A stretch of DNA of 36,084 nucleotides from a virus: IMG/VR virus record IMGVR_UViG_3300046028_001456, positions 1 to 36,084 of that record; one strand, given 5' to 3'. This document shows positions 4,627-25,706 of the stretch, piece by piece (position 1 is the first letter of the stretch; the number at the start of each line of letters is the position of its first letter). The notes below the pieces were generated by a model that was given only the letters and a program-made list of their open reading frames with translations, did no database searches and was not told the DNA's origin. A program made the position numbers and the translations under genes.

Positions 4627-5216
4627 TGGCAGCGATTCCACTTGCCGCAATGATGGCAGCATCCGCTGCTGTAAGTGCTGCTGGTGCTATCCAACAAGGG
4701 ATGGCAGCTCAGGCACAAGCTAAGTCTGCACAAGACGCAGCAAACTACAACGCAACAATTAAGCGTCAACAAGCAACCTCAGAACTTCAGCAAGCTAATG
4801 CTCGTGAAGAGCAACAACGTCGTGGTACTCGTCAAGTCTTGGGTCAGCAGCGTGCTGCACTTGCACAAGCGGGTATTGGTATGGGTGGATCAGCTCTGGA
4901 CATCGAGGAGCAGTCTGCTGATCGTGCTGAACTTGATGCGCTGACTATTCGTTATGAGGGTGATCTACGAGCAAAGGGTTTACTTGCTGCTGCTGAAGGT
5001 GCTGAATACGAGGGTCGTGCTGCAATTGCTGCGGGTAAGAACGCAATGACGGGTGCATACTTGTCTGCGGGTGCATCGCTCTTGAGTGCTGCGGGATCGT
5101 ACAAATACTATAGTGCGGGGATGCCTAGCTCAACATTGAGCACCGCAGCACCAAGCATCGGTGGTGGCCCAGGCTTAACTGGATATGGTGGCGTTGGTTT
5201 GAGAGGCCCAAGATAA
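4626..5216 (+). CDS. Internal virion protein B (gp14-like)
   Basis: A 196-residue, Ala/Gln-rich protein. The N-terminus (about residues 1-28) is a hydrophobic, small-residue helix, followed by a long helical region rich in Q, A, E and R and the GQQRAALAQAGIGMGGSA motif found in gp14-like proteins. In T7 gp14 is ejected first and forms a channel in the outer membrane. Length equals T7 gp14 (196 aa). The C-terminus is Gly/Ser/Pro-rich. TAATG overlaps join it to both neighbouring genes. Confidence 0.85.
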   Translation: MAAIPLAAMMAASAAVSAAGAIQQGMAAQAQAKSAQDAANYNATIKRQQATSELQQANAREEQQRRGTRQVLGQQRAALAQAGIGMGGSALDIEEQSADRAELDALTIRYEGDLRAKGLLAAAEGAEYEGRAAIAAGKNAMTGAYLSAGASLLSAAGSYKYYSAGMPSSTLSTAAPSIGGGPGLTGYGGVGLRGPR

Positions 5217-7813
5217 TGGCAAGAATCCCTATTTACCAAGAACGTCAACAAGCATCACAAGCATTTGCTGCGCCTGATTTGCGAGCACCGGACGTAGGTG
5301 CGGGTGCGATTGGTCGTGGATTGCAGCAAGTTGGTCAGGGTTTGCAAAACCTTGCTGTCGGTCAATTGCGACTGGATACCGAGAACGGTAAAGCACAAGC
5401 AGCAAAGACGTTTGGTGAGGTGCAGAACGAGTTTGTTAGTCTGTTGCAAACGGAGAAGGAGACAGCGCAGCCTGGCGCAAAGGACTTTACTCCAGCATTT
5501 ACGTCAAAGCTACAAAAGCGTCGTGATGAAATTTTAGCAACTGAAACTGACCCGTATGCTCGCAAGTTCCTTGAGCAAAGCATTAACCAATTAGGTGTAA
5601 CGCTTTCTCGTGATGCGTTGTCGTTTGAAGCGACTGAAATGCGTGGTAATCGTATCAATGACATAAAGACAGGTATTGACAGCATTACAAGCTCCCTTGT
5701 ACAGAACCCTAATTCTGTATTAGCAAAGCAAGCATTTGGTCAAATGAAAGCGAATATTGATTCGCAGCAATTATTACCAAGAGAAAAGCGTGAGCTTGAA
5801 GATTACGCTCGCACACAATTTGCACAAGCGTATGTTGGATCGTTAGCGGTCAAGAATCCTAGAGCATTGGTTGGTATGGGTGGTAGCGTACTGGAAGGTA
5901 CAAAGCTGTCACCTTCCAACGTGCGTGAAACAACGATTAACTTTATTTTAGAGTCTGAGGGAAGTGATTACGTTCCTGACGATGCAGGTGCAGGTGAAGC
6001 AAAGTACGGGATTGTCGCTAAATTTAATCCTGGCGTTGACGTAAAGAACCTGACTAAAGAGCAAGCAGCGCAGATTTATCGTGAAAAGTATTGGTCTGCT
6101 GTAGATGCTGACAATCTACCACCTGCTCTTGCTGCTGTAATGACAGATACCGCTGTCAACATGGGCGCAGGTAAAGCTAAAGAATTGTTGGAAAAGTCTG
6201 GTGGTGACATTGGTTCATTTCTAGAATTGCGTCGTGACCACTACAAAAACCTTGCAACAAGCGACCCTAAAAAGTACGGTCAATTTTTAAACGGTTGGTT
6301 AGCTCGCACAGACAGATTGCAAGCGTTGGTGCAAAGCTCCGATATGACGGACGTTGCTACTGTAGACTCAACTAAGGGTTTACCAGAAAACAATCCAGCA
6401 AGCGAAAACATCTTGCAATGGCTACCTGTCTCGCAGCAATTGTCGTACATAAAGCAAGCTCAGACAGTCATTAAACAAGATCAAGCATTGGTGCAAAAGC
6501 AGTTTGTCGAGCGCATCAATAACTCTAATGCAATGGCAGTCGACGGTATCCAAGACCCCAAACCATTGACCTCTTCTGACTTTTTTAAAGCGTTTGAACC
6601 ACAAGAAGCTGCTAAACAGTTTGCTAACTACGACACAAATCAAACACTCGCAGCAACAATGTCTACATTTAAGACACAATCTGCGTCTCAAATTTCTACT
6701 GAGTTATCGTTGTGGAAGCCAGAGCCAGGCGAGGATTACGCTATTGCAGAAAAGCGATTTAATGTCTTGCAGCAAGCAGCAGTCCGTATTGCTGAACAAC
6801 GCAAAGCTGATCCAGTCGCTTATGTTGCTAGTACAAACCCTCGCATTGCAGATTTGCAAGAACAAATTGCTTCAACTTATGCAACAGCAGGAACGGAAGG
6901 TCAGCGAGCACAATTAAGTCGTGAATATGCGACTGCATCGCTTGCGGAACAAGAGCGACTTGGTATTGCAGACCCCAAAATATTGAGCAATCCAGAAGTC
7001 GACTTTTTGTCTCGTCGCATTGGTGCAGGTAAAGAGTCATCTGCTGACATTGTTGCATCACTTGAGTCGCAGTATGGTCGTGAGTTTTTCCCTAAAGTTA
7101 TGTCTGAATTGATGCAAAAGGGTAAGTTATCACCTGCATTAATGGTTATTCCTGACTTAGATTCATCAGATAGCAGGGAGATTGTTTCCCGTCTGTCAGC
7201 AATGAAACGCTCAGATATGGAAGCTGGTGTCAATTCCAAGGTTATTAAAGATATTAAAGAGTCTGTAACGGAGCACGTTAAGTTGTTGCAGGTCTCCGCT
7301 GGCCCGATGTCCGTTGGGATGTCACAACAGCTTGGTGCGTACCAAGAGATCATGGAGCGTATTGCTATTGATCGAGTTGGTCGAGGTGTAGACAAGAGTG
7401 GTTCTGCTGCTGCTGATGCTGCAAACAAGATGCTATTGGGTAAATACCAGTTTAAAGATACCTTGAGGATGCCAGCAAGCGTAGATTCTGGTGACGTTAT
7501 GACTGGATTAAATACGGTTGTTAAGCAAGGTGTACTTCCTGAGTTAACAATTGCAGACGTACCTCGTGATCTGACGGGCGCAAGAACACCAGAAGAAGCA
7601 TTGGTTGAATGGAGATCAACGGTTGGTTCACGCTATATGTGGATTGCAAACGGTGACACAACCAAAGCAATGCTGTGGGTGCAGGGTAAGAACGGTGAGT
7701 TCTACAAAGTCAACAAGGGTGGCGAGCAGTATGGAATCACCTACGAAGATGCGACAGCAAAAGGTAAACAGGTGTTTAAGACATCTCAAGAAACGCTAGG
7801 TAGAGGGTTTTAA
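5216..7813 (+). CDS. Internal virion protein C (gp15-like) with a muramidase-type domain
   Basis: An 865-residue protein in the gp15 position (T7 gp15 is 747 aa). The ends are helical and Q/A-rich, as in periplasmic ejection-channel proteins. Residues about 240-370 hold a lysozyme-like segment: ESEG at 246-249, then AKYGIV, YREKYW and DTAVNMGAGKA, the layout of glycoside hydrolase family 108 muramidases with their C-terminal cap; the Glu of the ESEG block is the likely catalytic acid. In T7 the peptidoglycan-cleaving domain sits on gp16, so it is placed on a different internal protein here. The start overlaps the upstream stop by TAATG. Confidence 0.88.
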   Translation: MARIPIYQERQQASQAFAAPDLRAPDVGAGAIGRGLQQVGQGLQNLAVGQLRLDTENGKAQAAKTFGEVQNEFVSLLQTEKETAQPGAKDFTPAFTSKLQKRRDEILATETDPYARKFLEQSINQLGVTLSRDALSFEATEMRGNRINDIKTGIDSITSSLVQNPNSVLAKQAFGQMKANIDSQQLLPREKRELEDYARTQFAQAYVGSLAVKNPRALVGMGGSVLEGTKLSPSNVRETTINFILESEGSDYVPDDAGAGEAKYGIVAKFNPGVDVKNLTKEQAAQIYREKYWSAVDADNLPPALAAVMTDTAVNMGAGKAKELLEKSGGDIGSFLELRRDHYKNLATSDPKKYGQFLNGWLARTDRLQALVQSSDMTDVATVDSTKGLPENNPASENILQWLPVSQQLSYIKQAQTVIKQDQALVQKQFVERINNSNAMAVDGIQDPKPLTSSDFFKAFEPQEAAKQFANYDTNQTLAATMSTFKTQSASQISTELSLWKPEPGEDYAIAEKRFNVLQQAAVRIAEQRKADPVAYVASTNPRIADLQEQIASTYATAGTEGQRAQLSREYATASLAEQERLGIADPKILSNPEVDFLSRRIGAGKESSADIVASLESQYGREFFPKVMSELMQKGKLSPALMVIPDLDSSDSREIVSRLSAMKRSDMEAGVNSKVIKDIKESVTEHVKLLQVSAGPMSVGMSQQLGAYQEIMERIAIDRVGRGVDKSGSAAADAANKMLLGKYQFKDTLRMPASVDSGDVMTGLNTVVKQGVLPELTIADVPRDLTGARTPEEALVEWRSTVGSRYMWIANGDTTKAMLWVQGKNGEFYKVNKGGEQYGITYEDATAKGKQVFKTSQETLGRGF

Positions 7814-22079: not shown

Positions 22080-22108
22080 ATATTAAGCTATCTGAACAGT
22101 ACAAACAA
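22080..22108 (-). promoter_or_regulatory. Leftward early promoter P-left2 (-35 TTGTTT, 17 bp, -10 TAATAT)
   Basis: On the minus strand TTGTTT (22103-22108) and TAATAT (22080-22085) are separated by exactly 17 bases. The operator fills most of the spacer and the first half of the -10 box. The start site would be near 22073, giving a leader of about 38 bases to the start at 22035. Confidence 0.65.
22083..22096. promoter_or_regulatory. Operator copy 1 (TTAAGCTATCTGAA)
   Basis: Identical 14-bp sequence to 24115-24128 and 25296-25309. It is an imperfect palindrome: 10 of 14 positions match the reverse complement (TTnAGnTAnCTnAA). It overlaps the -10 box and spacer of the leftward promoter at 22080-22108, where a bound repressor would block RNA polymerase. 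Confidence 0.75.
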
Positions 22109-24143: not shown

Positions 24144-24172
24144 TTGATTTAAGTTAGCTTATTCACTATACT
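24144..24172 (+). promoter_or_regulatory. Rightward promoter of the regulator gene (-35 TTGATT, 17 bp, -10 TATACT)
   Basis: TTGATT at 24144-24149 and TATACT at 24167-24172, spacer 17 bases. Transcription should start about seven bases after the -10 box, at 24179-24180, which is the ATG itself, so the message is predicted to be leaderless. The diverged operator copy fills the spacer. Confidence 0.72.
24149..24162. promoter_or_regulatory. Operator copy 4, diverged (TTAAGTTAGCTTAT)
   Basis: Matches the reverse orientation of the consensus (TTCAGATAGCTTAA) at 11 of 14 positions and keeps the palindromic core TAAGnTAnCTTA. It lies between the -35 and -10 boxes of the regulator's own promoter, so it would allow autorepression. 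Lower similarity may mean lower affinity. Confidence 0.6.
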
Positions 24173-24414: not shown

Positions 24415-24564
24415 ATGCCACAAGGATTGTACGCAAACATCAATGCCAAACAAAAACGTATCGCTGCTGGGTCTGGCGAGAAGATGAACAAGCCTGGCAG
24501 CAAAGCAGCACCCAGCGCAAAAGACTTTCGTGATAGCGCAAAGACTGCAAAATCCAAGAAATAA
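24415..24564 (+). CDS. Small conserved phage protein (49 aa, GLYANINAKQKRI type)
   Basis: Encodes 49 residues, MPQGLYANINAKQKRIAAG through a basic, Lys/Ala/Ser-rich C-terminus. The opening GLYANINAKxKRIAxGS and the KPGS block are conserved in many phages, often near structural or packaging genes, with no assigned function. It starts two bases after the regulator's stop. Strong basic charge suggests nucleic acid contact. It is the last gene before a 767-bp gene-free stretch. Confidence 0.8.
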   Translation: MPQGLYANINAKQKRIAAGSGEKMNKPGSKAAPSAKDFRDSAKTAKSKK

Positions 24565-24569
24565 AGTTT

Positions 24570-24872
24570 GTACCCACAAGTCTGGGTGTTGAGCATTGTG
24601 TGCAGCTACACCCGATTGGGGCTGTGAGCAGGTAAGTTTCTAGATACCTTACCTTGCAACTACCAGCCGAGACACCAGCACTCAGTCTTGTGGGTATCAG
24701 GTGTTAGCGACCTGATTTAATCGCAGCGTCTAGCAGACCGGAGTTCCTTGGCAGGCACTTGCACTCTTAGACGTTAGTGTTTAGTTTTCTAATGGAAAAT
24801 CGTGCTTTATCGAACCCACTTGCACTATCTTTAAAATTAGTGAATAATATAGATGTTGCCTTGGACAGCAAT
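24570..24872 (+). ncRNA. Candidate structured RNA, 5' part of the gene-free block
   Basis: The stretch 24565-25331 has no plausible gene but carries nested inverted repeats. A perfect ten-pair helix joins 24571-24580 (TACCCACAAG) to 24687-24696 (CTTGTGGGTA), enclosing an 8-pair helix with one bulge (24582-24590 with 24671-24678), a stem at 24602-24625, and a perfect AGGTAAG/CTTACCT hairpin at 24630-24654. A 7-pair hairpin follows at 24696-24716, then a closed domain at 24725-24775. CACTTGCACT occurs twice (24756 and 24817). The layout fits a large structured RNA or a cis-acting leader, transcribed rightward from the regulator promoter. No match to a named RNA family can be claimed by eye. Confidence 0.55.
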
Positions 24873-24878
24873 GAGATC

Positions 24879-24973
24879 AGACCGCTTTAATCAGCATCCC
24901 GCCCCGTACAGGGGGTACAGTTCCCACAAAGAGCTGTATGTCCAACGGGGTGTTGATTAAAGCGGTCTTTTTA
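24879..24973 (+). terminator. Strong intrinsic terminator with 15-bp perfect stem
   Basis: AGACCGCTTTAATCA at 24879-24893 pairs without mismatch with TGATTAAAGCGGTCT at 24954-24968 and is followed by TTTTT in the plus direction. The 60-base apical part can form further pairs (CCCCG/CGGGG and TACAG/CTGTA). It ends rightward transcription coming from the regulator promoter, much as lambda tR1 does after cro. The apical region is unusually large for a simple terminator. Confidence 0.82.
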
Positions 24974-25290
24974 TGTCTATGGCTTCCGTCAGGGAGCGTT
25001 ATCAGATAGGGTTAAATCGCCCGTACCCAAGAAAGATTGGCTAGTCACACACCCGACTGCAAGCCACGAAGCCTTAAATGGGGACTTCACAAGACTAGAG
25101 GACATCGGTGGGACAAGACTCTAGCTCGATTTAACATTCACTCTGTGTAGGACTGGTATATATCTTTAAGATATCTATGGGTCAGGTAGGAAAGCAATAG
25201 GAAACTACGTGCTTACCACCCTTGGGGAAGGTATGTCAAAAGATAAGATAGAAAATAAATGTATAAATATTTAACCTTTTCTTAAAAACA
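24974..25290 (+). other. Structured gene-free segment downstream of the terminator
   Basis: No gene is visible. GTTAAATCG at 25011-25019 pairs perfectly with CGATTTAAC at 25127-25135, closing a domain of about 125 bases that contains CTAGAG/CTCTAG (25095-25100 with 25119-25124). A GCTTCC/GGGAGC hairpin with a four-base loop lies at 24982-24997, and an ATATC/GATAT hairpin at 25160-25174. It may be the 3' half of a large RNA, the leader of the rightward operon, or part of the replication origin region. Confidence 0.5.
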
Positions 25291-25295
25291 ATGTG

Positions 25296-25309
25296 TTAAG
25301 CTATCTGAA
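25296..25309. promoter_or_regulatory. Operator copy 3 (TTAAGCTATCTGAA) before the rightward operon
   Basis: Third exact copy of the 14-bp element, 22 bases upstream of the ATG at 25332. A weak promoter pair with 17-base spacing (TTAAGC at 25296, TATAGG at 25319) overlaps it, but the boxes are poor, so the promoter here may need activation or lie further upstream. The operator places the rightward gene block under the same regulator. Confidence 0.72.
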
Positions 25310-25331
25310 CCAATTAACTATAGGTGACAAA

Positions 25332-25706
25332 ATGGACTTTGAAGATTTCTGGAAACGATACCCTCGTAAAGTTGCTAAAAAGACCGCTATGCAAGCGTTT
25401 GCAAAGTTACCACTAGACGAGCAGGAGCTTGCATTGGATGTTGTGGATAACCATGTTGAGTACTGGAAGCTGAAAGAAACAGCAACAGAGTTTATTCCAC
25501 ACCCTGCGACTTGGTTGAATCAGGGTCGGTACTACGACGAGCTGGACATGAAACCTAAAGCACCTGTGAAACCTGCATTACCTTGGTACTCGACTGAGCA
25601 GCTCACAATGGACAAGGCTCGTGAGTTAAGTATGCAACCAAGACCAGGCGAGGACATGGGTCAGTTTAGAGCTAGGATCGCACAACGAGCAGCGGAGACA
25701 CAATGA
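25332..25706 (+). CDS. Replication-protein-like domain (FEDFWKxYPRK type)
   Basis: Encodes 124 residues from ATG 25332, with TAGGTGACAAA in front. The N-terminus MDFEDFWKRYPRKVAKKTAM and the later FIPHPATWLNQGRYYDE form a domain normally found at the end of phage replication-initiation (O-like/DnaT-like) proteins. Here it stands alone, without the usual winged-helix origin-binding part. It could recruit host helicase loader or primosome. It is the only replication-type protein visible apart from SSB, and is the first gene of the rightward chain under operator copy 3. Confidence 0.8.
   Translation: MDFEDFWKRYPRKVAKKTAMQAFAKLPLDEQELALDVVDNHVEYWKLKETATEFIPHPATWLNQGRYYDELDMKPKAPVKPALPWYSTEQLTMDKARELSMQPRPGEDMGQFRARIAQRAAETQ

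Follow-up and report, generated by a model that had tools for sequence, protein, structure and literature searches.

A pseudoknotted terminator and an uncatalogued, intricately folded RNA ahead of the replication gene of a podovirus-like phage

What fills the several hundred nucleotides that separate a phage regulator from the replication gene downstream of it, if no gene is found there? The question is raised by the window analyzed here, the whole 36,084 bases of IMG/VR virus record IMGVR_UViG_3300046028_001456, which belongs to a podovirus-like phage carrying tail tubular, internal virion, terminase, and head genes. The first-pass annotation described a gene-free block in this phage (24565-25331). 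It is bounded by the stop of a 49-aa gene at 24564 and by the replication gene at 25332, and no open reading frame of at least 60 aa was found on either strand within 24600-25290; tRNA and tmRNA genes are absent from the window (ARAGORN, Rfam). The block holds structured RNA, namely a conditional-looking terminator and, behind it, an uncatalogued, intricately folded phage RNA. On the + strand, the order of its elements is domains A and B, a promoter-like box, unit 1, and unit 2A (Table 1). A 49-aa lysine-rich gene of the window (24415-24564, stop at 24564; phrog_16028), has similar DNA in cyanophages; its place in relatives is a different one, past the replication gene and thousands of bases downstream.

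Table 1. Features of the regulator-to-replication region (positions in the window)
Feature	Position	Strand	Basis or description
Cro/CI-like regulator gene, 77 aa	24180..24413	+	phrog_35 transcriptional repressor, E 8e-15
Domain A: 21-nt outer helix and inner stems; lineage-limited	24571..24696	+	inverted repeat; fold z -4.1
Domain B: covarying hairpins; lineage-limited	24694..24818	+	8-sequence alignment
Promoter-like TTGCAC - 17 nt - AATAAT, sigma-70-like	24820..24848	+	direct reading
Unit 1, whole (~118 nt)	~24855-24972	+	5' hairpin whose loop pairs with the bulge of a long intrinsic-terminator hairpin
Unit 1 hairpin P1 (GUUGC/GCAAU)	24855..24872	+	P1 85% paired
Unit 1 terminator hairpin: 24880-24901 with 24946-24967, U-run 24968-24972	24880..24972	+	covariation, fold
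Unit 2A, whole (~260 nt): compact, multiply pseudoknotted RNA	~24984-25241	+	covariation
Unit 2A core: P0, H1-H5, pseudoknots PK1-PK3	24984..25156	+	71-sequence alignment A2, unsupervised covariation
Core helix H1	25009-25012/25019-25022
Core helix H3	25068-25073/25082-25088
Core helix H4	25093-25098/25122-25127
Unit 2A 3' domain: stem and branched hairpin ending CCACCCUUGG..UAUG	25157..25241	+	31-sequence alignment A1
Operator-like palindrome TTAAGCTATCTGAA between RNA and replication gene	25296..25309	+	repeat copies in window
Replication initiation gene	25332..25706	+	phrog_270, E 3e-19

Composition of the gene-free block

On both strands, the predicted fold of the whole block is more stable than that of shuffled sequence (z -4.9 on the + strand and z -3.3 on the - strand, 20 shuffles each). 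The three largest inverted repeats that had been noted earlier were located at 24571-24591/24676-24696, 24879-24901/24946-24968 (23 nt, 91% complementary), and 25011-25019/25127-25135, while the smaller stems at 24696-24716 and 24725-24775 were seen in the predicted fold and covary in relatives. The third repeat does exist as a 9-bp repeat, but it is not a helix of the family (59.8% paired versus 60.5% in shuffled sequence); its pairing is due to chance, and its 5' arm is in fact the stem and loop of hairpin H1. The expectation of a structured phage RNA was borne out by strong covariation in relatives, whereas that of a single RNA of 767 nt was not: the block consists of several elements, including an intrinsic terminator, and comprises a conserved RNA of ~260 nt and a separate terminator unit.

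The upstream elements are restricted in their distribution. DNA matching domain A occurs, among the loci compared, only in L003 and L006/L007, that is, in two or three close relatives. Domain B has an ordinary folding energy by itself (z -0.8), and 11 of its 30 pairs show compensatory change in the alignment of eight sequences; it is possibly the 3' UTR of the regulator transcript. The promoter-like box between domain B and unit 1 was not among the matches listed by a generic promoter scan of the window, and a -10-like ATAAT is retained at its position in relatives.

Unit 1, a pseudoknotted intrinsic terminator

Most relatives carry the promoter-like box and unit 1 upstream of unit 2A. The sequences of unit 1 fall into at least three types (X, Y, and Z) that share one topology: the 5' hairpin P1 is followed by a long hairpin and a U-run, and the P1 loop is paired with a 7-nt strand. 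In the window, the loop strand UUGGACA (24861-24867) pairs with the bulge strand UGUCCAA (24939-24945), which comprises the 7 nt immediately 5' of the 3' arm of the terminator. In type X, this loop-bulge helix is 92.1% paired, versus 65.1% in shuffled sequence, with compensatory change in six of its seven pairs, and the 22-bp terminator helix has 16 compensatory pairs and is 95.6% paired (31 sequences, the window among them). The 28 type Y sequences keep 97.7% of cells across 47 pairs. By eye only, type Y also has a possible closing helix between the unit 1 5' end and a strand past the U-run (GCAGA/UCUGC, with the variants CGCAGA/UCUGCG and GGCAGA/UCUGCC), which overlaps P1. The unit 1 of the window folds at -60.5 kcal/mol (z -7.9), and its stable hairpin, which shows compensatory changes in relatives, is followed at once by UUUUU, as is characteristic of an intrinsic terminator. 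In two relatives, tRNA genes are inserted between the regulator and unit 1 (L040 1813-1888, Thr; L050 811-963, Asn and Thr).

Such a location recalls known phage terminators. The lambda terminators tR1 and PR'-tR' stand ahead of operons requiring read-through, downstream of a Cro-like gene or of a constitutive promoter, and unit 1 resembles them in its placement before an operon. It differs in its conserved loop-bulge pseudoknot and in the structured RNA behind it, and neither an antiterminator protein nor a nut site was identified for it. The position between the regulator and the rightward operon is indeed, as the first-pass annotation had pointed out, a site where termination or antitermination control would be expected. 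That annotation had suggested a put-like RNA. The put RNAs of HK022 are structured and stand at the beginning of early phage transcripts, and RNAs of the put type act in cis to suppress downstream termination. Unit 1 is likewise structured and located at the 5' end of an early transcript. If it acted as put does, it would modify RNA polymerase to ignore its own and later terminators, and two phages described below (L024 and L198) need read-through of such a terminator. In contrast to put, however, unit 1 is pseudoknotted and itself ends in a terminator with a U-run, which is the opposite of put, and its types X, Y, and Z differ in sequence while keeping their topology, unlike a fixed-sequence polymerase-binding motif. 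We therefore consider a put-like antiterminator highly improbable; what the anatomy implies is regulated read-through, with unit 1 as a conditional terminator or attenuator.

Unit 2A, a conserved non-coding RNA

The fold of unit 2A was obtained from alignment A2, which comprises 71 diverse sequences. Mutual information was calculated with no prior structure; the 13 top column pairs, each at least 98% canonical, define P0, H1-H5, and three pseudoknots. PK1 joins the P0 loop with the strand after H1; PK2 joins the H1 loop with the strand before H2, mostly as AUG/CAU and in other sequences as AUC/GAU; and PK3 starts from the H5 loop. All four Watson-Crick types occur at one single pair, that of columns 14 and 21. 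The named structure is 96.7% paired, versus 74.1% in shuffled and 29-43% in slid alignments, with compensatory changes in 24 of 35 pairs and a covariation score of 0.580 versus 0.184; these controls are shuffled or slid alignments, and the tree is not modelled explicitly. Covarying pairs in the 3' domain lie in columns 180-240 of alignment A1. Additionally, a UUAAAUSG-like motif is common to the H1 and H3 loops in many sequences.

G-U pairs (172) far outnumber A-C pairs (11) in unit 2A, and therefore it is the + strand that is read as RNA; a minus-strand RNA is ruled out by the same asymmetry. This ratio also bears on the idea of a replication-origin element, in which the transcript or a folded single strand would prime or license initiation in the manner of an RNA II-type primer. 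The adjacent replication initiator and the A+T-rich stretch at 25240-25290 after the RNA would suit an origin, but by this ratio the fold is conserved in the form of + strand RNA rather than DNA, and RF02932, an RNA found in the same slot (see below), also occurs away from phage replication genes. An origin element is, in our estimate, improbable.

The core has no conserved open frame, as each frame is stop-free in at most five of the 71 relatives, and core lengths across relatives spread over all three classes modulo 3. In MW202674.1, the annotation places tiny hypothetical proteins across the RNA (5007-5377); their frames are not conserved, and these annotations are most likely spurious.

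A covariance model, R1, was built for unit 2A and scores the window at 145 bits. No Rfam 15 family matches the RNA at the gathering score or at E<=10, including GOLLD and ROOL, which had been offered as comparators. GOLLD and ROOL are large structured RNAs of phages and prophages, with unknown function; many GOLLD RNAs exceed 800 nt, and both classes often occur near tRNA islands (PMC12286853), in contrast to unit 2A with its ~260 nt and its location at the replication module. By its absence from Rfam 15, unit 2A is a new RNA family; related phage RNAs may already be described.

The distribution of the family was followed in several ways. The neighbouring replication protein is encoded on 50 contigs, and alignment of the DNA upstream of their replication genes shows conservation of 24690-25245, most strongly from 24980 on. 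A pattern from the conserved stretch detected 45 viral loci, a second pattern at least 119, and a nucleotide profile 155, some of which are the same contig entered twice. Of the 155 profile loci, 106 remain with flanks, and 101 core sequences are distinct; loci of different scans overlap. The count of at least 101 distinct viral sequences with unit 2A is a lower bound. In a phage collection searched by BLAST, the environmental genome MW202674.1 was the only carrier found. No unit 2A was found in the plasmids searched or, with the first strict pattern, in bacterial genome contigs; four matches to a loose pattern in genome contigs failed to match the nucleotide profile. Model R1 likewise gave no match in 300 genomes of one Burkholderiales order, in a search that had no positive control.

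The slot behind unit 1 and the control of replication

A rightward Cro/CI-like regulator is located upstream in most unit 2A loci and a replication initiator downstream in 58. Unit 2A heads replication genes in podophage-type relatives and likewise in larger contigs unlike these: in one unlike clade (L106, L127, L130, L143, L164, and L173), it lies shortly before genes that, judged by eye, look like ParB-like, SF2 helicase, and primase-like genes. In L092, L138, L094, L171, and L176, the RNA comes immediately after the upstream gene. Behind unit 1, the slot is taken by unit 2A, RF02932 (Betaproteobacteria-1), or a third RNA, or is empty, and a locus never carries two of these RNAs. Among the 50 loci anchored on the replication gene, 22 have unit 2A, 13 have an RF02932-containing RNA (checked by cmscan in four of them, 79-85 bits), two have the third RNA, 2C, and 13 have none, many of these being cut contigs. 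RNA 2C (L032 3755-4082, L048 432-694) has a 5' hairpin region in common with unit 2A and a different body; similarly, in MW202753.1 (L197), unit 1 is followed by a 2A-like 5' end and then by a different sequence.

RF02932 is, like unit 2A, an orphan structured RNA, and in relatives it has the same slot, the same regulator, and the same replication gene. It differs in showing no sequence or model similarity: R1 did not match the RF02932-bearing loci searched, nor did the RF02932 model match the window. It also occurs beside the transposition genes of one Burkholderiales genome. It was found in three of 200 Burkholderiales genomes, and the Trinickia copy (L195) lies between Tn7-like TnsA/TnsB-type and TniB-type genes and an AAA_13 gene. 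The RF02932-containing phage RNA is ~260 nt or longer (L019 3361-3624, L022, L030, L037, L046, and others), about twice the 120-position Rfam model. No paper naming the Betaproteobacteria-1 RNA was found in the literature library searched.

Operator-like sites add to this picture. The palindrome TTAAGCTATCTGAA has exact copies at 22083, 24115, and 25296 and a one-mismatch copy at 24149, and 11 matches are listed versus 0.6 expected. It sits at the regulator and before the replication gene; the palindrome scan placed no copy in the unit 1 promoter. TTAAGCTATCTGAA and its variants are probably the binding site of the 77-aa regulator. The replication gene may have its own operator-controlled promoter, which is clear in L001 and L006 and weak in the window.

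The reading toward which we lean, with modest confidence, is that a conditional terminator, positioned like lambda tR1, gates the replication operon and that read-through yields unit 2A as a structured RNA. The block would then be a control region of the phage replication operon acting via RNA. A promoter without a phage operator would start the transcript, the first ~118 nt of which would fold so that the hairpin loop docks into the bulge of the intrinsic terminator, and most transcripts would be expected to stop there. Polymerase passing the terminator would make unit 2A and run on toward the replication genes. Unit 1 would thereby gate entry to the replication module, and unit 2A would be made with or ahead of that module. 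The conserved structures, the strand, the non-coding nature, the order, and the position are established; we infer a working, regulated terminator and a role for unit 2A as replication begins.

Gating is favored because in two phages, L024 and L198 (MW202520.1), 12-13 nt lie between the end of a unit-1-like terminator and the start codon of a replication gene, which is the tR1 arrangement. This terminator is the variant found before RF02932 in L019. The gap leaves no room for another promoter, so the terminator must be crossed for expression from any upstream promoter. The covariation of units 1 and 2A, the slot at the replication module, the presence of no more than one RNA per slot, and the operator distribution also speak for this reading. 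On the other hand, the possible promoter of the replication gene in the window means that the terminator need not be crossed there, and unit 2A stands without unit 1 in some genomes (e.g., L092 and L138), so the RNA does not depend on gating. It could also be that the terminator does no more than separate transcripts.

An alternative is a pair of independent trans-acting non-coding RNAs with host or phage targets: unit 1 would be a small RNA that ends at its terminator, and unit 2A another, stable RNA that arises through leaky read-through or from the promoter of the regulator, the position serving only as an early-expression site. In its favor, unit 1 is equipped with a promoter and a terminator of its own, and in L106, L127, L130, L143, and L164, a sigma-70-like promoter directly precedes unit 2A, with no terminator between. 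Different RNAs in one slot resemble a cargo position, and Trinickia RF02932 adjoins Tn7-like transposition genes. A pair of trans-acting RNAs is nevertheless rather unlikely, given that position and orientation ahead of the replication genes are consistent and that the terminator adjoins the replication gene in L024 and L198. It ranks first among the alternatives, ahead of an origin or primer RNA and then of put-like antitermination.

A control role for the new RNA family is probable. A broader proposal is more tentative: an RNA-based replication switch of a new class, in which a pseudoknotted terminator is combined with a cassette position where unrelated complex RNAs (2A, Betaproteobacteria-1, 2C, and others) replace each other, each giving a specific RNA function at the onset of replication.

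Complex conserved RNAs without an assigned function are rare and hard to place, and unit 2A is such an RNA, with ~100 sequences, 11 covarying helices including three pseudoknots, and a fixed genomic position. The loop-bulge pseudoknot inside an intrinsic terminator represents a defined, testable design for conditional termination. The natural swaps with the orphan RF02932 give both RNAs a shared context, a phage replication switch, and the shared slot makes the function of unit 2A and RF02932 testable by deletion and swap.
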